From positions 1-64,000 of the forward strand of contig JAJFLE010000007.1 of the NCBI GenBank assembly GCA_021772835.1: a stretch of DNA of 64,000 nt. The letters are read 5' to 3'. The notes beneath the pieces are model-generated. The model saw only the letters and a list, made by a program, of their open reading frames with translations. It had not been told where the DNA came from and did no database searches. This stretch comes from Mariprofundus sp. (GTDB lineage: Bacteria > Pseudomonadota > Zetaproteobacteria > Mariprofundales > Mariprofundaceae). Position 1 is the stretch's first letter. The number at the start of each line of letters is the position of its first letter. The position numbers and the translations under genes are program-made. This document shows, in pieces, positions 7,808 through 35,744 of the stretch.

Positions 7808-8286
7808 GCGTTACCAAACCCGCTGCTAACGATACCATCAATCAACTTGGCATGACGTTTCGCATCCAATTCAGCTTCTACAACCTGCTCGGCAGCGATC
7901 ATTGCAATATCAGCAACTTCGTTACGCAGGGTCTGACGCGCACGGTTTAGCTCTGCATTTACTTCATCGCGAGCACTGTCAACGATCTGCTGTGCTTCAG
8001 TGCGAGCCTTGATAACAGACTCTTCATTAAGCTCAGCCGAACGCTTTTCAGCAGCGACAATGATTTCAGAAGCTTTGGTGCGAGCCTCCTTCAACTGCTC
8101 AGTAATTTCAGCTTCAGCTTTCGCTTTCGCTTCTTTACCAGCATCTGCAGCAGCAAGTCCCTGAGCGATCTTGGTGGAACGAGCGTCCATAAGATCGGCC
8201 AGTGGGCCGTACAGGTATTTCTTCATGAGAAATACCAGGGTCAGGAAAACAACTATCTGACCGATAAATGTCAGGTCTAAACTCAT
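7804..8286 (-). CDS. atpF: ATP synthase Fo b subunit
   Basis: Peripheral stalk subunit. There is one N-terminal membrane segment (LTFIGQIVVFLTLVFLMKKYLYGPL). A long Ala/Glu/Lys-rich helix follows (AKAKAEAEITEQLKEARTKASEII and on), expected to form the dimeric stalk. Length 160 aa is typical. A single b gene is present, so this is a homodimeric b2 stalk rather than the b/b' type. Confidence 0.96.
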   Translation of the reverse strand: MSLDLTFIGQIVVFLTLVFLMKKYLYGPLADLMDARSTKIAQGLAAADAGKEAKAKAEAEITEQLKEARTKASEIIVAAEKRSAELNEESVIKARTEAQQIVDSARDEVNAELNRARQTLRNEVADIAMIAAEQVVEAELDAKRHAKLIDGIVSSGFGNA

Positions 8287-8321
8287 ATGACCTCCTCTTT
8301 AGATTCCAATGTTCTTTTTTA

Positions 8322-8576
8322 TTAGCCCAAGAATGGGTTAGCGAACAGGAACCACAGAGCGAATGCCATGATGATGAATGGGAATGATTCCATCAGACCT
8401 GCAAAGATGAACATGTTAAACATAAGCTGCGGGCGCATTTCTGGTTGACGAGAGATGCCTTCCAGCGCTTTCGAGCAGATAAGACCCCAGCCAATTGCAG
8501 AACCTAGGCCTGCAGCAGCGAGGATAACACCGACTGAAATTGCGGTAGCAGCTGTGATGATTGTTGTTGGGTCCAT
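8322..8576 (-). CDS. atpE: ATP synthase Fo c subunit (proton type)
   Basis: Rotor-ring proteolipid of two membrane helices joined by the polar loop RQPE (residues 43-46). The ion-carrying carboxylate is Glu63 in LMESFPF. The position equivalent to the Na+-liganding glutamine of sodium c-rings is Trp30 here, so I read it as a proton c subunit. Length 84 aa is normal. The position between atpB and atpF is standard. Confidence 0.97.
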   Translation of the reverse strand: MDPTTIITAATAISVGVILAAAGLGSAIGWGLICSKALEGISRQPEMRPQLMFNMFIFAGLMESFPFIIMAFALWFLFANPFLG

Positions 8577-8609
8577 ATTTATATACTCCTATCGTTGTTG
8601 AAAATTAAA

Positions 8610-9434
8610 TTAGTGTTCTACCGGTTGGTGTGCAATAGACAAGTACACCACCGTGAGAATCATGAAGATGAATGCCTGCAGCAGACCAATAAACAGATGG
8701 AACATTGTCCATGCCAGACCCACGAAGAAACCTGCTGCCATACCAACCGCACCGCCGCCCAAGAGCAGGAATGCAATCAGCAGGAAGATGACTTCCCCTG
8801 CAAACATATTACCGAAAAGTCGGAAGGACAGTGACAATGGTTTGGCCACTTCTTCAACGAGCTTCAGAATCAGATTAATAGGCATCACAAATGGCCTTAA
8901 GTAGACAGGAACCAGCGATGTAAACGGCTCCATCACCAACTCTTTACAGAAATGAACCGGCTTGAGTTTAAATTCATAGTAGAGCACCAGAACAAAAACG
9001 GACATAGCCATTGCAGCGGGCAGATTCAAATCGTTGGTAGGCACCGGACGGAAATGCTCAACATCAAACATATGTGCAATATTACCCAGCAGGAATGCAG
9101 GCAGAATATCAATAGTATTCACCAGCGCGATGAAACAGAAAACCGTGAATGCCAGAGGAGCAATCAACGGGTTCTTAACAGGGAAGTTATCCGTGACGGT
9201 CTGGTCGATAAAGCCAACCACTGACTCCATGAAATTCTGCGCACCAGTGGGTGCCCCTTCAACCAACCTACCCTTCAACCATAAGGCAAAAATAAACATG
9301 CCACCGGCAACCACAATGGAAACCAGCATAGTATCAAGATGAATTTGCATGAATGGATTGGACTCATCAAGCTTGAGTGTCCAATACTGCAGATGGCCAG
9401 CAATTCCGCTGTCGCCGTGACTCTGATCAGCCAA
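8610..9434 (-). CDS. atpB: ATP synthase Fo a subunit
   Basis: Membrane stator subunit forming the two proton half-channels against the c ring. The essential arginine lies in SFRLFGNMFAGE, and about five to six hydrophobic helices are visible. The C-terminus has the family pattern QAFIFMILTVVYLSIAH. Length 274 aa is normal. It overlaps the end of atpI by eight bases. Confidence 0.96.
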   Translation of the reverse strand: MADQSHGDSGIAGHLQYWTLKLDESNPFMQIHLDTMLVSIVVAGGMFIFALWLKGRLVEGAPTGAQNFMESVVGFIDQTVTDNFPVKNPLIAPLAFTVFCFIALVNTIDILPAFLLGNIAHMFDVEHFRPVPTNDLNLPAAMAMSVFVLVLYYEFKLKPVHFCKELVMEPFTSLVPVYLRPFVMPINLILKLVEEVAKPLSLSFRLFGNMFAGEVIFLLIAFLLLGGGAVGMAAGFFVGLAWTMFHLFIGLLQAFIFMILTVVYLSIAHQPVEH

Positions 9435-9816
9435 GTCCCTCTCCTTTACCTTCTTTCTTAAACTCTATTAGGGCAGTCACAAAAACCGCCGCCTGTGCGA
9501 TAAACATACCGGCTGCCACAATTAGCAGATGCAATCCGATTAACTGCGCCACCAGCAAAGCTACTATCAGCGCAACAAATCTTAATGCCGCTCCAGCAAA
9601 CAGGGATCGCTGCCCTGCCTCAACTTCCAGACCCTGAGTTTTCTCAAGCCTGTAGGCGAGCCACCATGCATTCCCCATCATCAGGCATGCGCCATAAAGC
9701 AGGGAGAAAGCATATACAGCCTGAGTCAAAACTATCAGGCCAACAAAACCAAGTGTTCCCACAATCGCCTGAGTCCGGAAAATATTCGAAAATGCAGTCG
9801 ATTTTTCCAGAGCCAT
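9427..9816 (-). CDS. atpI: ATP synthase-associated membrane protein AtpI
   Basis: First gene of the atp operon. It is a small protein of 129 aa with about four membrane segments (TLGFVGLIVLTQAVYAFSLLYG; FVALIVALLVAQLIGLHLLIVAAGMF and others). AtpI-family proteins are proposed to help c-ring assembly. Sequence conservation is low in this family, so the assignment rests on position, size and hydrophobicity. Confidence 0.85.
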   Translation of the reverse strand: MALEKSTAFSNIFRTQAIVGTLGFVGLIVLTQAVYAFSLLYGACLMMGNAWWLAYRLEKTQGLEVEAGQRSLFAGAALRFVALIVALLVAQLIGLHLLIVAAGMFIAQAAVFVTALIEFKKEGKGEGLG

Positions 9817-10010
9817 TAAATCCTCAAGAACAAGGTCATTGAACCACTAATTATACGTGAATTCCTTCCCCTCAGCTGGTGCGCGACGCATTATAGCGAG
9901 TCACACCCCTCAGTTCAAGCGTACAATATAAATTCCATTGTTTGCTTGAATATGTTTCATATCACCACTTGCTCCACCGCTTGTCCATACCAACGATAAG
10001 ATCATAATCG

Positions 10011-11471
10011 TTATATCAAGCCGCCTAAAGCCTGTTTACACAATGCCATCAACGGCTCCGGGTAAACTCCAATAAGCACAACACCAATCGCTGCAGCGAC
10101 TACAGTTGCCTGTAACGGTTTGCTCTCAACAAAGTTGAATGCAACACGCTCTTCATCAAAATAGATGTATTTGACCACGCGCAGGTAATAGAAAGCACCA
10201 ATGGCTGAAAACAGCAGAGCAAACAGAACCAGATTAAGATGTCCTGCCTCAACAGCCGCCATAAATACCGCATACTTAGCCCAGAAGCCGCCCAGGAATG
10301 GAATACCTGCCATAGAAAACATCAGCAGCCCCATCGCCAGGGCATAACCCGGACGCACACGTGACAGTCCTGCAAAATCATCCAGCAACTCACCCTGAAT
10401 GCCTTCACGGCGCATGAGTATAATAATGGCAAATACTCCCATGGTCATGATCAGGTAAATCGACAAGTAAATCAGGATTCCGGAAAAACCATCAGCTGTG
10501 CCTGCGATCAGGCCCATCATAATAAAGCCAACGTGGCCTATGGTTGAATAGGCCAACATACGTTTAATATTACGCTGAGCGATTGCAGCCAGATTACCAA
10601 CGACAATCGTCAGTACGGCCAGAATCGTCAGTATTGCTTCATACTCGTGCTGCACTGCAGGTAACAGGTCGGCAACGATACGCATAAGAATGGCAAAACC
10701 GGCCACCTTCGGTGCCACAGACATGAATGCTGTAACCGGCGTCGGTGCGCCCTCATAGGCATCCGGTGTCCACATATGAAAGGGTGCCATGGATACTTTA
10801 AATCCGAGCCCTGCGATCAGGAACACCAGACCAAGCATGAGAGCTGCGTGGCTGTTGCTATCGGTGTGCTGCAACGCCTCGCCCATAACTGCAAAATTGA
10901 AGCTGCCAGTCACGCCATACAGGAAAGTAATACCGTAAAGCAGCATGCCTGATGAAAGTGCACCGAGGATAAAGTATTTCAGTGCGGCTTCATTGGAACG
11001 CAGCACTTCTCGCTGATAGGCCACCAACACGTATACACAAAGCGCCATCAACTCAAGACCGAGATACATGATGATAAAGTTATTCGCTGAAACCATCAGC
11101 ATCATGCCCAGCATAGCAAACAACATCAGCACATAATATTCACCGATATTCACTTCATTTTTCATATATTCCAGCGACAGAATCATACCCAATGCCGTGC
11201 CGATAAAGATCAGCATCTTGCTGTACACTGCAAACTGATCGAAGACAAAAAAGCCGTAGAATGCTACCAGCACTTCAGAGCTCTGCAGTGACCACGTTGC
11301 AACAGCTGCAAGTAGCGTAGTCAATATCGCCAGATAAGCCGTGATTTTATTGCCCTTGGTGATGAACACATCGATCAGCAATAAAACCATTGCCAGTACG
11401 GCCACGATCATCTCAGGCAGCAGCGTAATCAGGTGCTCTGGGAACGGGAACGGAAAAGTCACATTAGCCAT
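10011..11471 (-). CDS. nuoN: NADH-quinone oxidoreductase subunit N
   Basis: Antiporter-like proton-pumping membrane subunit of complex I and the last gene of the nuo operon. There are about 14 hydrophobic helices. The family patterns YKVSMAPFHMWTPDAYEGAPTPVTAFMS and RNIKRMLAYSTIGHVGF are clear (channel Lys and Glu positions). Length 486 aa is normal. Its TAA stop is followed by about 190 bases with no gene before atpI. Confidence 0.97.
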   Translation of the reverse strand: MANVTFPFPFPEHLITLLPEMIVAVLAMVLLLIDVFITKGNKITAYLAILTTLLAAVATWSLQSSEVLVAFYGFFVFDQFAVYSKMLIFIGTALGMILSLEYMKNEVNIGEYYVLMLFAMLGMMLMVSANNFIIMYLGLELMALCVYVLVAYQREVLRSNEAALKYFILGALSSGMLLYGITFLYGVTGSFNFAVMGEALQHTDSNSHAALMLGLVFLIAGLGFKVSMAPFHMWTPDAYEGAPTPVTAFMSVAPKVAGFAILMRIVADLLPAVQHEYEAILTILAVLTIVVGNLAAIAQRNIKRMLAYSTIGHVGFIMMGLIAGTADGFSGILIYLSIYLIMTMGVFAIIILMRREGIQGELLDDFAGLSRVRPGYALAMGLLMFSMAGIPFLGGFWAKYAVFMAAVEAGHLNLVLFALLFSAIGAFYYLRVVKYIYFDEERVAFNFVESKPLQATVVAAAIGVVLIGVYPEPLMALCKQALGGLI

Positions 11472-26555: not shown

Positions 26556-26590
26556 TCGAACCAAGGACACTCGGCCCTGACACATCATCC

Positions 26591-26632
26591 ATAAACAAAA
26601 AGGGCACCCCTAAGGGCACCCTTTTTGTTTAT
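26591..26632. terminator. Strong bidirectional terminator, probably the original ssrA terminator
   Basis: ATAAACAAAAAGGG pairs with CCCTTTTTGTTTAT (14 bp), with an inner CCC/GGG stem. It directly abuts the left attachment repeat, so before island insertion it would have followed the tmRNA 3' CCA immediately. It still ends transcripts from either side. Confidence 0.8.
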
Positions 26633-26653
26633 GGTGGGGCGGCGTCACTCGAA
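26630..26653 (+). repeat. Left attachment repeat (attL)
   Basis: TATGGTGGGGCGGCGTCACT plus CGAA matches the ssrA 3' end at 35393-35417 apart from one gap and two substitutions. It lies directly after the displaced terminator. It marks the island's left edge. Confidence 0.75.
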
Positions 26654-26693
26654 TAACAATAAATAGCAACAGATTTTAGCCGGGGTGATAAAT

Positions 26694-26714
26694 GTTACTG
26701 TAAAAGTTACTGCA
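26694..26714 (+). repeat. Left integrase arm-type sites
   Basis: GTTACTGTAAAAGTTACTGC followed by A is identical, over 21 bases and in the same orientation, to 35261-35281 beside the integrase gene. It contains two direct copies of GTTACTG. Identical short sites at both ends of an integrase island are expected for arm-type binding sites. Confidence 0.65.
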
Positions 26715-26788: not shown

Positions 26789-27769
26789 TTAGTCGTTAAA
26801 AGTGCTTATTCCCAAATCATTTGCCAGTGGCTCGAGCATACTGTTAGGGAAAGGCCAGTCCCTGAGCAGCCTGTTTTTCTTCTTCTTCAGCATCCAGTAG
26901 ACAAACAGAACGGTACTTTGCTGGTAAAGGACGCTTTCACTATATCGCGCCTTGATTATTTCAGACAGAGAAGTGAATTTACTGAGTGTGGATTGAATAT
27001 CTTCGACAAGGTTCTCATCAATAAGCTGCTCGAACTGATCCCAAATAACGATAGATGATTTTTGTGGGTACGATTGAATACCTGTCATACTATTATATAG
27101 ACCATCAAGCCTAGCGACAACGCCATATTCTTCGAGAGGGCCGTAGTTTAGCTGCTTGGTTGCTTCTGAAAAGAAATCGTCGGTCGTTTCAATAAGTGCC
27201 ATGCACTTTGCAACAGTCCTGTGCACTTTTGGCCGAACTGTTCTTTTGGACTTATAGATTGCATCATGAGTGAGCTCAGCATGGGCATGCTGCAACAACG
27301 TTCTGATTTGAACTTCGCATGTCGTAGAGGCTGGGATCGCAATGCCCTCCACAGTGAAACCTTCTTTTGGGCGAAGAATATAATGGACTGATTGATAGGT
27401 AAAAAGCAACGGGTCATTTTCTCTATCAATATCAAAGTGCTTGCAGGCATCAAAATCCCAAACATCAGAACTTTCAATGGTGCGGCAGACTTCTTGTAGA
27501 TCTTCCAAAAGAAGAACAATAAATCGCGCCCCAACTTTATCTTCGATTTCACTATAAGGGTCAGAATAAGCCTTACCGCGATAGAATGCTTTATCAATAA
27601 GAGAGATATCATCTTTCAATCGACACTTGGCGGGAACTTTTAGAAATACATCGAGATCCTTTCCTTGATCTACAAGACTCTGAGAGATTGTATCGACGAT
27701 ATGATTTCCCCAGGCCTCATAAATAGGCCTGTCGGATTCCCACTGTGCTTTAAATTCAGCTTCATTCAT
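26789..27769 (-). CDS. RelA/SpoT-domain protein (synthetase-like, no HD domain)
   Basis: A single RelA/SpoT-type nucleotidyltransferase domain lies in the N-terminal half. In my 326-aa numbering the motifs are CRLKDD at 49-54, DKVGARF at 77-83, TYQSVHY at 124-130, EVQIRT at 152-157 and HAHAE at 161-165. There is no hydrolase HD domain, so it resembles small alarmone synthetases and toxic SAS enzymes that pyrophosphorylate nucleotides or tRNA. The helical C-terminal 130 residues are unassigned. I start it at the ATG overlapping the upstream stop (ATGA). An in-frame ATG 42 bases earlier would give 340 aa. It is coupled to the ndpA-like gene. A role in phage defence or growth arrest is inference. 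Confidence 0.8.
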   Translation of the reverse strand: MNEAEFKAQWESDRPIYEAWGNHIVDTISQSLVDQGKDLDVFLKVPAKCRLKDDISLIDKAFYRGKAYSDPYSEIEDKVGARFIVLLLEDLQEVCRTIESSDVWDFDACKHFDIDRENDPLLFTYQSVHYILRPKEGFTVEGIAIPASTTCEVQIRTLLQHAHAELTHDAIYKSKRTVRPKVHRTVAKCMALIETTDDFFSEATKQLNYGPLEEYGVVARLDGLYNSMTGIQSYPQKSSIVIWDQFEQLIDENLVEDIQSTLSKFTSLSEIIKARYSESVLYQQSTVLFVYWMLKKKKNRLLRDWPFPNSMLEPLANDLGISTFND

Positions 27770-28860
27770 TCTTGTTGAGTGATCCTGTCTTTGATGGTTA
27801 CTTTTGTCCATTCGGCGGGTGCACCAGATTCATCTGGGTCGCCATCAATTGTCTCAATAATAATTAAGTCTTTGAATGCATCAGATGGCGCAATGATCTT
27901 CACATTGCTTCCAAAATTAACCCTTCTGAACTTGAGGCTGGCTTCAATATGACAGATGTCCTTTGTAAATGCGACAGTCGGCAGGCCGCACTCTTCCATG
28001 TGGCTTGAGAACGCATCCTGAACATCAATATCATTGAAATATGTCGAGGCAAATTCAGAAGAGCTGATTGCTGACGAGGTACTGACTTTTAGATAAGTTG
28101 TTAAAGCATTCAGAAGGTCACTTTTCTCAGCAACTGGAATATCTAGCTCCGATATAAACGATCTGGTTGAATCGTAGAATTGCATTGTTGTTCTGGCACT
28201 AGTCTGAGGGTAACCACAACCAAGGAAGTCTGAATAAAAATACTGTGCAGCAGCCTTCCCATCGGTCTTGCTAATTTGGTAATCAGAGATCATGACTGTC
28301 CACCTGTCATTTAGATCCGAGCTGGGTGCGTCAGAGCTTGCTTTCTCAAAAAATCCTGCTGTTTTGTATAACCGTGTTCCTGGGGTAAGCAACACCTCTT
28401 CAACAAACTTCAGAGATATCTCTCCCCGCGCATTTACCTTTTTCTCATAAGCACTGTGAATTTCAGCTTTGATAATCCCAAAGAACCTCTTCGCTGGATG
28501 ACCCTGTGTGCCAGAAAATACGACAATTATGCCGCCAGGAATTGATCTTGTGTGTTGAGCGTCGGTTAATTTCCTTGCGATGTCATAGGAGGATGCTGCA
28601 AAGGAATCATGTTCCTGCTCGATCATCTCATTAACGAGAGAAGGAAGGTCATCAGGCTCTTGGTCCACAATTTCCATTTCAACTGCCTTGGAACCATCAC
28701 CCAGCGCATCCCTTACCCTGGTTTTGAATGCCTCCATAGCATTGCTGTCAAAGAGCGTATACTCATGACTCTGCGTCGGAGTGACTTTATTGCCATCGTT
28801 ATCGCGCTCATGAATTTGGTGGATAATGATCCTATCAATGGTCAAGTTTAATAGCTGCAT
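27766..28860 (-). CDS. NdpA-like nucleoid-associated protein (YejK family)
   Basis: Resembles the 37-kDa nucleoid-associated protein family, which includes E. coli YejK. It begins LLNLTIDRIIIHQIHERD, as the family does. It has the GGIIVVFSGTQGHPAKRFFGIIKAEIHSAYEK segment near 110-140 and a C-terminal IEASLKFRRVNFGSNVKI. Length 364 aa against about 335 in E. coli. In known members it associates with DNA. Here it is the first gene of a two-gene unit with a RelA/SpoT-like protein inside a mobile island, so it may act as sensor, partner or neutraliser. That role is inferred from context alone. Confidence 0.75.
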   Translation of the reverse strand: MQLLNLTIDRIIIHQIHERDNDGNKVTPTQSHEYTLFDSNAMEAFKTRVRDALGDGSKAVEMEIVDQEPDDLPSLVNEMIEQEHDSFAASSYDIARKLTDAQHTRSIPGGIIVVFSGTQGHPAKRFFGIIKAEIHSAYEKKVNARGEISLKFVEEVLLTPGTRLYKTAGFFEKASSDAPSSDLNDRWTVMISDYQISKTDGKAAAQYFYSDFLGCGYPQTSARTTMQFYDSTRSFISELDIPVAEKSDLLNALTTYLKVSTSSAISSSEFASTYFNDIDVQDAFSSHMEECGLPTVAFTKDICHIEASLKFRRVNFGSNVKIIAPSDAFKDLIIIETIDGDPDESGAPAEWTKVTIKDRITQQE

Positions 28861-29218: not shown

Positions 29219-29701
29219 CTAGCGACAAGATATAGCCATTCCATGAACCACCTTAGCAATACTGTTATTATGTACGATATAATCTAAAGCAACAGCCTGA
29301 AGCTCATAGGTTTTAGATTGCATGCACCAACCTTTCGTCTGGCCCATTACTGCTGGAGAAGCCTTGTAAAGCTCAGATGCCCTTGTCTGAAACTTAGCAT
29401 CTGGCATTGAGTACCATCTTGCTATGGTATTATTGATCATCATCTTATTTATATCCAAGCCCATACCAGCACCGCTATCAACCATGCAGCTAGGGCTAGC
29501 AAAAGTGATTATACCGTTATTGCTAGTGACATCTTTTCCATAGAAATACTTTTGATCATTGGCCGTTTTCTGAGTGTACCAGCACTTTTCACCCTTATCA
29601 TTTTGGATATAACCCTTTGGTTGAAACGATGCAGCAAAACTACTGTTAGAGATTAATAGTAATCCGCTTATAAAACCGATAAATATTCTCTTCATTACCA
29701 T
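29219..29701 (-). CDS. Exported hypothetical protein
   Basis: 160 aa with a clear signal peptide (MVMKRIFIGFISGLLLISNSSFA, cleavage near AASFQ). The mature part has cysteines in GEKCWYT, PSCMVD, GWCMQ and at the penultimate position (SCR), which could form disulfides. I recognise no family. It is first of three exported proteins in the island, all on the minus strand. AGAGGG lies five bases before the ATG. Confidence 0.6.
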   Translation of the reverse strand: MVMKRIFIGFISGLLLISNSSFAASFQPKGYIQNDKGEKCWYTQKTANDQKYFYGKDVTSNNGIITFASPSCMVDSGAGMGLDINKMMINNTIARWYSMPDAKFQTRASELYKASPAVMGQTKGWCMQSKTYELQAVALDYIVHNNSIAKVVHGMAISCR

Positions 29702-30766: not shown

Positions 30767-30991
30767 GTGAATTCATCTACTCCAGAACAAGCCCTCGGAA
30801 AGGCCATTAGATGCCTCCGCGAAGGACTTGGCCTCTCCCAGGAGGCCCTGGGGTTTGCCTGTGATTTACATAGAAACTACATAGGTTCTGTTGAGCGTGG
30901 AGAACGTAATATCTCCATTCGGAACATCACTGTTATTGCCAAGTCTTTGAAGGTAACGGCAAGTGAGCTTCTTAGGCATGCAAATCTGTAA
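30767..30991 (+). CDS. Restriction-controller-like (C protein) HTH regulator
   Basis: 74 aa XRE-family helix-turn-helix: ALGKAIRCLREGLGLSQEAL, then RNYIGSVERGERNISIRNIT. Size and the RNYIG-ERG-RN pattern are very close to C proteins of type II restriction-modification systems. The start is GTG with at most a weak ribosome site, and C-protein mRNAs are often leaderless. It is the only plus-strand gene in the island and has two C-box-like sites in front. No endonuclease or methyltransferase gene is nearby. It may regulate itself and possibly the divergent lipoprotein gene. Confidence 0.75.
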   Translation: MNSSTPEQALGKAIRCLREGLGLSQEALGFACDLHRNYIGSVERGERNISIRNITVIAKSLKVTASELLRHANL

Positions 30992-32861: not shown

Positions 32862-33050
32862 TTAACGGCGCTTAAAACCGCCACTGTCTAAATCCTGTAA
32901 TATCTCAACACCTAGCGCCTGAGCTTTACCAAGCTCATGCCAACAGATGCTGTCCTTTACGAAGCTATATTGGGTCTCTCTCAGAATTGAGATCATGGAT
33001 CGTAAATTATGTTTGTGCGATTCGGTTAAGCGGCTAGTGATATCAGCCAT
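32862..33050 (-). CDS. Hypothetical protein
   Basis: 62 aa starting MADITSRLTESHKHNLRSM. I chose this start because its ATG overlaps the end of the alpA-like gene by eight bases and AAAGGG lies upstream. A nine-codon longer form exists. It is mostly helical with a basic end (GGFKRR). No family recognised. Confidence 0.5.
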   Translation of the reverse strand: MADITSRLTESHKHNLRSMISILRETQYSFVKDSICWHELGKAQALGVEILQDLDSGGFKRR

Positions 33051-33252
33051 TGATTGAACCCTTTCCCAGCTCATCAATCAATTTACGAATGTCTTCTACT
33101 CGCCATGCGGTAGTTCGTTCAGATAACTTGACTGGCTGGGGGTACTTACCCTCGGCAACACCACGCCACCATGACGATTTTGAAATGGGTATTACTGAAA
33201 GAATCTGTGGTATTCTCGCAAACCCACAATCTGGAAATTTATTTGGTTCCAT
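33043..33252 (-). CDS. AlpA-family HTH regulator / excisionase-like
   Basis: 69 aa with ARIPQILSVIPISKSSWWRGVAEGKYPQPVKLSERTTAWRVEDIRKLI, the MerR-like winged helix typical of AlpA. In P4-like islands this protein activates or assists excision by the integrase. AGGAGG lies six bases before the ATG. Placement two genes from the integrase supports an excision or regulatory role. Confidence 0.85.
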   Translation of the reverse strand: MEPNKFPDCGFARIPQILSVIPISKSSWWRGVAEGKYPQPVKLSERTTAWRVEDIRKLIDELGKGSING

Positions 33253-33357: not shown

Positions 33358-33930
33358 TTACTTATTCTTACTCTTATCTTTGGCCCAATCTGGCCTCACA
33401 ATACTAGCCATATGGTTTGCCATTGTTGAAGATACTTTGACAGAGTTCTCAATTATTTTGGCAATTTCTTTATTTGCTGGAATGTGATCGCTATCGGGCT
33501 TAATGCCCTTCCAGTGAGCGGCAGCAATATGTAACGCATCTAGGCGGCCTGATACGCTTTGATCGAGCCCGTCAGGCACAGCGGACTCCTTTGTAAGGCT
33601 TGCCGAATAAAACAAAAATGGCGGCTCCTCTTTCAATACTGTGGCAATATGAAGCAATGCCTCACGGCTTATCTGATCTCCTTTATCTAGACCATGCAAA
33701 TAGATTAGTTGCCTTATTCGTTTATAATCATCTTTATAGCTGCAGACATCTTCTCCATCCAGTGACTGCAATTCATTCGGCAATGAAGGTTTCTTCTCCT
33801 CATAACAATCACGAAAGTAAATAGCGCTTTCACTGCCAGCATCATATATACCGCTCCAGTAGCAAGCTGCATCGTGTACCAAGAAGCTACTTCTGTTCTT
33901 CATTATTTTTATCATCTGTCGATGGTTCAT
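33358..33930 (-). CDS. Hypothetical island protein
   Basis: 190 aa, soluble, no recognisable domain. Its ATG overlaps the integrase stop (ATGA), so it is co-translated with the integrase. The C-terminal part (ANKEIAKIIENSVKVSSTMANHMASIVRPDWAKDKSKNK) is basic. Function unknown. Confidence 0.6.
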   Translation of the reverse strand: MNHRQMIKIMKNRSSFLVHDAACYWSGIYDAGSESAIYFRDCYEEKKPSLPNELQSLDGEDVCSYKDDYKRIRQLIYLHGLDKGDQISREALLHIATVLKEEPPFLFYSASLTKESAVPDGLDQSVSGRLDALHIAAAHWKGIKPDSDHIPANKEIAKIIENSVKVSSTMANHMASIVRPDWAKDKSKNK

Positions 33931-35201
33931 CCTTTTGCCCCCACATAAATTGGAATTACCTGAGCCCCATCCCGAAGCTCATCAAGATAATTTGCCCATT
34001 CCTGCATCATTTTCTTTCGCTCTGGCATGTGCTGCGCATGATTATATGCAGCCTTCACCTTGTTAGTTTCACGGTGAGCAAGCTGTCGCTCAATAACATC
34101 TGACTTCCAGCCCCGCTCATGCAGTAGTGTTGAAGCCATCGCTCTAAAGCCATGGCCGCATATTTCAGACTTTTCATAACCCATACGGCGAAGCGCAGCA
34201 TTCACAGTGTTTTCACTCATAGGGCGACTTCCTGAGCGCATGCTGGGAAATACATGCTTCCCTGAGCCTGTGAGCGGCTGCAACTCCAGAAGTACTGCCA
34301 CCGCCTGTGATGATAGCGGTACAATATGCTTTTCCTTCACCTTCATCTTATGTGCAGGAATACGCCATTCAGCAGCATCAAGATCAAGCTCTATCCATTC
34401 GGCATGCCTCAGTTCACCCGGACGGACAAATACATACGGTGCAAGCTGCAAAGCACAACGGGTAATGAATGAACCCTTATAGTCAACCATAGCACGCAAC
34501 AACTCCCCCACCCTTTTAGGGTCGGTAATTGTCGCCATACGTTTATGCACTACTGGAGTTAGCACGTCTTCACTCTTTATGTCTTCACATGGATTGCGTT
34601 TCGCCTTTCCAGTGGCAATGGCATAGCTGAACACTCTGGACACATTTGCTTTAATCCGGTGAGTGGTTTCTATTGCACCCCGGCTTTCAACCCGGCGCAA
34701 CATTTCCAGCACTTCTGGCGCTTCAATCTCTCCAACATGGATATGCCCAAGCCACGGAAACACGTCTTTAATAAACTGATGTAAAATTCTACCAGCATGT
34801 TTCTCTGACAGCTTCACACTGCGATTTTCATGCCACGCTCTTGCGACCTCTTCAAAAGAATCTTGCAAAGCAACACCAGCTTTCAGTCGTTTCTCTCGCT
34901 CTATTGCCGCCGCTTCAGCCTCTTTTTTATCTTTGCGCTGACTGCTTGGGTCAATTCCATCAGCAATAGTCTTGCCTGCCTTGTCTGCCACTGCCCGTGC
35001 CATCTTCAAGGTAACTTTCGGATATACACCCAGCGATAGCGTTTTACGCTTACCTTCAAAAGCATAATCCAGCCGCCACCACTTCGCGCCACTCTTCTGA
35101 ACCAGCAGATACAGACCGCCACCATCAGAAATACGATAGGCCTTACCCTTGGGTTTAGCGGTGCGAATACTTATATCTGACGTGATGAGGTGCTTTGCCA
35201 T
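33927..35201 (-). CDS. int: P4-type tyrosine integrase
   Basis: 424 aa. The N-terminal arm-binding domain reads SIRTAKPKGKAYRISDGGGLYLLVQKSGAKWWRLDYAFEGKRKTLSLGVYPKVTL, typical of P4-like integrases. Catalytic residues are Arg in APYVFVRPGELRHAEW, His and Arg in CGHGFRAMAS, the second His in LAHRE and the Tyr in VKAAYNHAQH. I start at MAKHLITSDI because GGGAG lies eight bases upstream. A 19-codon longer frame exists. The site GTTACTGCA overlaps the ribosome site, hinting at self-repression. It lies beside ssrA, its target. Confidence 0.95.
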   Translation of the reverse strand: MAKHLITSDISIRTAKPKGKAYRISDGGGLYLLVQKSGAKWWRLDYAFEGKRKTLSLGVYPKVTLKMARAVADKAGKTIADGIDPSSQRKDKKEAEAAAIEREKRLKAGVALQDSFEEVARAWHENRSVKLSEKHAGRILHQFIKDVFPWLGHIHVGEIEAPEVLEMLRRVESRGAIETTHRIKANVSRVFSYAIATGKAKRNPCEDIKSEDVLTPVVHKRMATITDPKRVGELLRAMVDYKGSFITRCALQLAPYVFVRPGELRHAEWIELDLDAAEWRIPAHKMKVKEKHIVPLSSQAVAVLLELQPLTGSGKHVFPSMRSGSRPMSENTVNAALRRMGYEKSEICGHGFRAMASTLLHERGWKSDVIERQLAHRETNKVKAAYNHAQHMPERKKMMQEWANYLDELRDGAQVIPIYVGAKG

Positions 35202-35300
35202 TGCAGTAACTCCCGGCGAAAATGCAGTAACTTTCCATCCGCAACGCCTAAAAAACACCAGTTACTGTAAAAGTTACTGCATAAAATGTCGAATATTACT
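35202..35300. promoter_or_regulatory. Cluster of integrase arm-type sites at the int promoter
   Basis: GTTACTGCA-like sites occur five times: two inverted (TGCAGTAAC near 35206 and 35223), two in the 21-base block 35261-35281 that is duplicated near attL, and ATTACTGCA near 35294. The first abuts the integrase start codon. Confidence 0.6.
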
Positions 35301-35392: not shown

Positions 35393-35417
35393 TATGGTGG
35401 AGGCGGCGGGACTCGAA
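35393..35417 (+). repeat. Right attachment repeat (attR), inside the ssrA 3' end
   Basis: TATGGTGGAGGCGGCGGGAC followed by TCGAA is the tmRNA acceptor/T-arm end and matches attL at 26630-26653 with one gap and two substitutions. A 12-base repeat GCTCTTATGGTG occurs at 35365 and 35388, possibly an older attachment scar. Confidence 0.75.
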
Positions 35418-35744
35418 CCCGCGTCCGAAAACCATCAGCCTGCAGTTCTACATGTTTAGTCCGTTCGAGTAGCACCCCATGAGAACCAAACGGACAAAAT
35501 GCCCACGGGGTCGATTCGTAGCTATTTAACCCTACAGACCACGAGTCTCCGTTCTGTAGTAGCGATTCCATCTAAATGGCCCCGGATTCTCAATGGATGG
35601 ACACCTCAAGAGCGGGGTAACTTACGCAGCGTAAGCTAGTTCTACGTCGTCGTTTGCAATTATTGCAAGTAGCCTTTTTAACGAGAGTGCCATCCCGACA
35701 TGCCCTACAAGGTTCAGCATCTTCGTCGAAGCCAAATCGCCCCC
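35395..35744 (-). ncRNA. ssrA: tmRNA (transfer-messenger RNA)
   Basis: 350 nt. The 5' end is GGGGGCGATTTGGCTTCGAC and the 3' end is GGTTCGAGTCCCGCCGCC plus TCCACCA, which together give the Ala-tRNA-like domain. The tag reading frame (35622-35657) begins at GCA and encodes ANDDVELAYAA before TAA, a standard proteolysis tag. It rescues stalled ribosomes. Its 3' end is the island's insertion site and has been restored by the island. Confidence 0.96.

Follow-up and report, generated by a model that had tools for sequence, protein, structure and literature searches.

An NA37-synthetase gene pair at the edge of an integrase island

The 64,000-nt stretch of Mariprofundus DNA analyzed here (the window) carries two overlapping genes, one for a YejK/NdpA-like protein with an NA37 domain and the other for a protein with a RelA/SpoT synthetase domain (Table 1). 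Both domain matches exceed their curated Pfam cut-offs, the NA37 match with 57.1 bits against a gathering score of 24.6. The junction between the genes reads GAATGAATGAA: the NA37 stop codon, TGA at 27766-27768, falls inside the ATGA, and the ATG of the synthetase occupies 27767-27769. This overlap couples the translation of the two genes. A longer reading frame listed for the synthetase, beginning at 27811, was rejected, as the start conserved among relatives is the one in the ATGA. RelA_SpoT is the sole Pfam match over cut-off in the synthetase, and no HD hydrolase domain was found in it. The Pfam matches and the junction thus agree with the preliminary description of an NdpA-like gene ATGA-coupled to a hydrolase-less RelA/SpoT-domain gene, an observation that is confirmed and proves to have been understated. 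The source genome encodes two long RelA/SpoT (RSH) proteins on other contigs and has no second NA37 gene; NA37 was found in none of 22 congeners.

Table 1. Gene pair and island features, with positions in the window.
Feature	Position	Strand	Remarks
RelA/SpoT (SYNTH) domain synthetase-like gene	26789-27769	-	326 aa; Pfam PF04607, E 1.7e-12
NA37 (YejK/NdpA-like) gene	27766-28860	-	364 aa; upstream partner; Pfam PF04245, E 2.6e-15
ATGA start/stop overlap	27766-27769	-	conserved in 27/31 GTDB loci
Degenerate ssrA 3'-end copy	26630-26660	+	TTATGGTGG-GGCGGCG..ACTCGAA, one deletion; found by eye
21-nt direct repeat, left copy	26694-26714		close to the island's distal end
21-nt direct repeat GTTACTGTAAAAGTTACTGCA, right copy	35261-35281		likely integrase arm site
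AlpA-like regulator of the island	33043-33252	-	Pfam Phage_AlpA, E 9.3e-7
Tyrosine integrase of the island	33927-35258	-	Pfam Phage_integrase / Arm-DNA-bind_3
ssrA (tmRNA), integration target	35395-35744	-	ARAGORN; integrase gene abuts

The pair forms the integrase-distal end of an island of about 8.8 kb, of the AlpA/tyrosine-integrase type, that sits in ssrA. The GC content of the island is about 43%, compared with about 50% outside, and ssrA is separated from nuoA of the nuo cluster by 10.6 kb here as opposed to about 450-840 bp in seven congeners. The 21-nt direct repeats starting at 26694 and at 35261 match each other perfectly, and the degenerate ssrA 3'-end copy is likely the left att core. 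A perfect ssrA att duplicate was considered and rejected, since a pattern search without gaps recovers only the right copy and the left one is degenerate. Integrase, ssrA target, AlpA-like regulator, base composition, repeats and congener gaps together bear out the earlier proposal that the pair is cargo at the edge of an integrase island.

Several other features of the island region were recorded. A terminator-like 21-nt inverted repeat, 90% complementary, occupies 26589-26634 of the window and abuts the likely left att core; an inverted repeat like it adjoins ssrA in one congener (G017, L150). A 315-aa gene at 31102-32049 matches Rep_trans very weakly (E 0.094) and is possibly the replication initiator of the island. 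The 74-aa helix-turn-helix protein encoded at 30767-30991 resembles restriction-modification control-protein models (E 4e-22), and no restriction system was seen in the island. No hidden SLATT gene was found in the window: the upstream reading frame at 29219-29701, about 360 bp from the pair, has a single N-terminal hydrophobic stretch.

Another congener (G021) has an insertion of about 9.6 kb at the same ssrA site, with an integrase 86% identical to that of the window. At its integrase-distal end, where the window has the NA37-synthetase pair, a SocA/Panacea antitoxin gene overlaps a 134-aa gene without a Pfam family (L149 8624-9585, on G021:C16), a pair that is toxin-antitoxin-like. Panacea is described in PMC8832971 as an antitoxin domain that neutralizes many toxins. 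The same island also bears Prim-Pol and Nu1-like genes and is satellite-like.

Recurrence and co-inheritance of the pair

A scan of GTDB with one genome per species yielded 31 relatives of the synthetase, distributed among Gammaproteobacteria and other Pseudomonadota, Desulfobacteraceae, Nitrospinaceae and Kiritimatiellae. NA37 lies immediately upstream of the synthetase in all 31, with the ATGA overlap in 27; in one of this set (L002) the NA37 gene is partial, at a contig end. Predicted viral contigs supplied 54 loci through the synthetase search and one more (L102) through NA37, plasmids supplied three loci of the close type, and a phylum survey added one (L038). A distant pair on a Streptomyces plasmid was left out of the count. 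Among 5,426 E. coli genomes, a search at the DNA level, with the sensitivity that this allows, found the pair in four. All sources without obvious duplicates amount to 93 loci, with 84 distinct full-length synthetase sequences, and the hosts span at least four bacterial phyla, with the pair on mobile DNA.

An intact NA37 gene is directly upstream in 89 of the 93 synthetase loci. The remaining four are damaged or truncated: two are frameshifted with NA37 present (L035 and L094), and two are cut by a contig end (L072 and L093). The gap between the genes is -4 nt in 52 of the 89 pairs and -1 nt in 27 (79/89 together). Pairwise distances among the NA37 proteins mirror those among the synthetases (r = 0.963), and none of 999 Mantel permutations reached as high a value. 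Because the NA37 type of the window occurs in only two of 399 Pseudomonadota genomes and NA37 is absent from all 22 congeners, the distribution is patchy. The pairing is far beyond chance: on mobile elements the two genes are inherited together as one translationally coupled unit, and their association is obligate. Recurrence in other genomes, which had been set as a test of the initial observation, is seen in essentially every relative. Chance adjacency or a housekeeping origin is ruled out by the intact pairs, the overlap, the mirrored distances and the absence from congeners. The L035 copy (8001-10047) is a chromosomal one from Neisseria gonorrhoeae, filed among the plasmids, in which a frameshift splits the synthetase and NA37 stays open.

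Active site and fold of the synthetase

Eight residues of the synthetase, R50, K52, K60, D77, R82, E152, Q154 and R156, are invariant in 90 aligned sequences, and S56, G80 and the G-loop Y125 are nearly so. The catalytic residues of FaRel2 are R64, K66, S70, K74, D90, R95, E145 and Q147 (PMC11782079); R50, K52, S56, K60, D77, R82, E152 and Q154 match this set, with identical spacing within the motifs. Loss of the catalytic residues, the second test set at the outset, is thus not observed, and a degenerate enzyme is excluded by the near-invariance of the active site. Judged by its sequence, the enzyme keeps a synthetase active site and no hydrolase.

The AlphaFold2 model of the synthetase (pLDDT 83, pTM 0.54) finds its best PDB match in RelQ (5dec, TMt 0.77), with CapRel weaker. 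A profile search against the PDB agrees with this fold, RelQ/RelP being best and CapRel much weaker. The C-terminal part of about 115 aa is predicted as an all-helical extension.

The NA37 partner and its other pairings

The AlphaFold2 model of the NA37 protein (pLDDT 79) has a single significant PDB match, YejK (9be2, E 5e-7). The protein fails the NCBIfam YejK equivalog NF001557, scoring 21.3 bits against a cut-off of 341. Both DNA and topoisomerase IV are binding partners of E. coli YejK (Lee and Marians, 2013, cited in PMC10561277).

Most NA37 matches in a survey of Pseudomonadota score like YejK. Low-scoring NA37 genes at six loci (L111, L113, L115, L116, L117 and L122) are followed by a gene whose product, of 380-500 aa, bears a hydrophobic pair (2TM) at its C-terminus, and the two genes overlap in most cases. 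Plasmid relatives repeat the arrangement. Counting L128, L129 and L130 with the former six, NA37 is coupled to unrelated C-terminal-2TM proteins of 380-504 aa. These proteins fall into at least two sequence families and have neither a Pfam match nor a strong PADLOC match. They make the NA37-2TM pairs a candidate second class of NA37 operons. In the vicinity of one such pair are DUF262 genes and a phospholipase D-like gene with an anti-phage annotation. No relatives of the L113 NA37 protein were found in viral contigs. A match on a Klebsiella variicola plasmid (H22) was not counted, having no NA37 annotated beside the 2TM match and following IS26.

NA37 looks like a reusable sensor or regulator. 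Its reuse with unrelated 2TM proteins and the frequent SLATT gene described below favor such a role over that of a dedicated antitoxin.

Genomic neighborhoods

The pair is carried by lambdoid prophages, plasmids and tRNA islands. In several viral contigs it stands beside phage antitermination Q-like, DnaB/DnaC-like, NinB, HNH and head genes. In annotated phage genomes no NA37 was found, and the synthetases there were distant only. The E. coli copies occupy integrase islands at the tRNA-Thr (thrW) gene, beside proA; four such islands (L107, L108, L109 and L110) carry a SLATT/DUF4231-NA37-synthetase operon, and L108/L109 adjoin PsyrTA. E. coli KFu023 is one strain with such a three-gene operon. 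Across the loci, PsyrT and PsyrA adjoin the pair in L028 and L108. Identified defense neighbors are confined to few loci. In Acidithiobacillus sulfurivorans, the gene that immediately follows the pair belongs to the RhuM family (L031 7002-8000); a methyltransferase gene is present upstream, and one for a UvrD/GajB-like helicase downstream.

An upstream gene for a 2TM protein of the SLATT/DUF4231 kind is present in 15 members of the synthetase tree, which needs at least two changes to account for it. Most loci, including the window, have no SLATT or other 2TM gene beside the pair. The window lineage lacks the gene, possibly through loss; the tree is unrooted.

Searched against PADLOC-DB 2023, the pair gives weak matches to PDC-S33 (4e-6) and PbeC (0.005), beyond which that collection has no model for it. 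The earlier suggestion that the pair is defense cargo is partly supported, by its prophage, plasmid and tRNA-island sites, by PsyrTA beside two loci and by the Panacea pair in the sister island.

Comparison with known systems

The closest parallels are with toxSAS (FaRel2/ATfaRel2, PhRel and CapRel), which likewise feature a hydrolase-less RelA/SpoT synthetase on prophages and islands (PMC11782079, PMC9712102), a coupled two-gene layout, and common donor-site and catalytic residues. In contrast, the partner here is NA37 and not pZFD, Tis1, Panacea or a hydrolase antitoxin, the enzyme bears the C-terminal helical extension, and in the PDB it matches RelQ/RelP best by both profile and fold, with CapRel far behind. 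The housekeeping RelQ/RelP enzymes (YjbM/YwaC) share its fold and active-site motifs; however, identity to them is only about 17-20%, and the present enzyme is mobile, sporadic, always accompanied by NA37 and extended at its C-terminus.

The NA37 protein resembles YejK/NdpA in its domain and predicted fold, whereas it resides on mobile elements, in an operon with an enzyme, and far below the equivalog cut-off. An NA37 protein on a mobile element has a precedent in NdpA2 of the integrative and conjugative element (ICE) PAPI-1, which together with TprA increases the transfer of this ICE (PMC8565334). TprA differs in being a ribbon-helix-helix regulator, and the NdpA2/TprA system controls transfer and has no synthetase. 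A defense system of reverse transcriptase plus SLATT (RT-SLATT) also employs SLATT-type 2TM proteins (PMC9122126), but its core enzyme and sensor are not those of the NA37-synthetase pair; those of PsyrTA, a neighbor in two loci, differ as well.

The enzyme type and the NA37 domain are each known, and no description of their combination was found. In line with the first impression that no characterized system has this pairing, the literature searched, outside which lay many subscription papers and most preprints, contained no paper on it. A Sinorhizobium paper mentions a prophage NdpA-like gene, and a survey of Acidithiobacillia mentions an A. sulfurivorans NdpA gene on an island, naming no synthetase partner.

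Proposed function

The pair is probably a mobile toxSAS-like conflict module, of the toxin-antitoxin or abortive-infection kind, with two or three genes and NA37 as the regulator. NA37 would bind the synthetase and keep it inactive while monitoring DNA or a phage or host protein of DNA transactions. Infection would release the enzyme, which may then use ATP to pyrophosphorylate a nucleotide or the 3' ends of tRNA, and growth would halt ahead of phage maturation. In three-gene loci, the SLATT 2TM protein would serve as a membrane effector that either answers to the nucleotide product or works in parallel. Lambdoid prophages, plasmids, tRNA islands and the PsyrTA neighbors in two loci point to conflict biology. 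Intact pairing in 89/93 loci, the distance correlation (0.963), the catalytic residues, the RelQ-like fold, the patchiness and the Panacea pair of the sister island all speak for a conflict module, as do the SLATT/DUF4231 gene in 15 tree members and the coupling of NA37 to 2TM proteins. Against it count the mobile NdpA2 of PAPI-1, which regulates ICE transfer and not defense (PMC8565334), the scarcity of defense neighbors and the lack of a model for the pair in PADLOC-DB 2023.

An effector role in nucleotide-signal systems has been proposed for SLATT domains. The main rival is accordingly one of second-messenger signaling, in which the synthetase makes a diffusible (p)ppGpp- or (p)ppApp-like messenger upon infection, a SLATT 2TM effector executes the response and NA37 is the sensor; in two-gene versions, the alarmone would act directly on host metabolism. 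The SLATT/DUF4231 gene directly upstream in 15 tree members, with at least two changes on the tree, and the pairing of NA37 with 2TM proteins at other loci both speak for signaling. Yet most loci, the window among them, have no 2TM gene beside the pair, so a membrane effector is not obligatory, and this account is judged rather unlikely.

Control of the element's own lifecycle is less likely still, and quite improbable. NA37 and the synthetase would then tune transcription, transfer or excision of the element, with an alarmone reprogramming the host and no defense involved, as the presence of the pair on mobile elements and the action of NdpA2 with TprA in PAPI-1 (PMC8565334) might suggest. 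A lifecycle regulator should follow one element type, however, whereas the carriers are unrelated (prophages, plasmids and tRNA/ssrA islands), and an antitoxin pair, that of Panacea, takes the same place in the sister island. Hitch-hiking of a YejK paralogue with a stress alarmone synthetase, without joint function, draws on the existence of housekeeping forms of both domains and on the two long RSH proteins elsewhere in the genome, but is already contradicted by the near-perfect coupling, the conserved overlap, the mirrored distances and the absence of any other NA37 gene from the genome and of any from its congeners, and its probability is negligible.

Implications for NA37 proteins and bacterial immunity

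The toxSAS enzymes are established anti-phage effectors, but what triggers them on infection is understood mainly in the case of CapRel. If the pair is a conflict module, the nucleoid-protein fold of the enzyme's obligate partner suggests that the trigger here differs, perhaps being a change that phage cause in the topology of DNA, in its replication or in the state of the nucleoid. The native E. coli copies make direct testing feasible. The pair would also account for the scattered NdpA-like genes of mobile DNA that are annotated as nucleoid proteins, and the pairing predicts further NA37-based defense operons.

More tentatively, and at somewhat less than even likelihood, NA37 may serve bacterial immunity in general as a module that senses infection or gates the response, with interchangeable effectors, namely a synthetase-like enzyme, an enzyme together with a SLATT protein, or stand-alone C-terminal 2TM proteins. 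Were this so, there would be a family of NA37-gated immune systems, of which housekeeping YejK would be the cellular relative.
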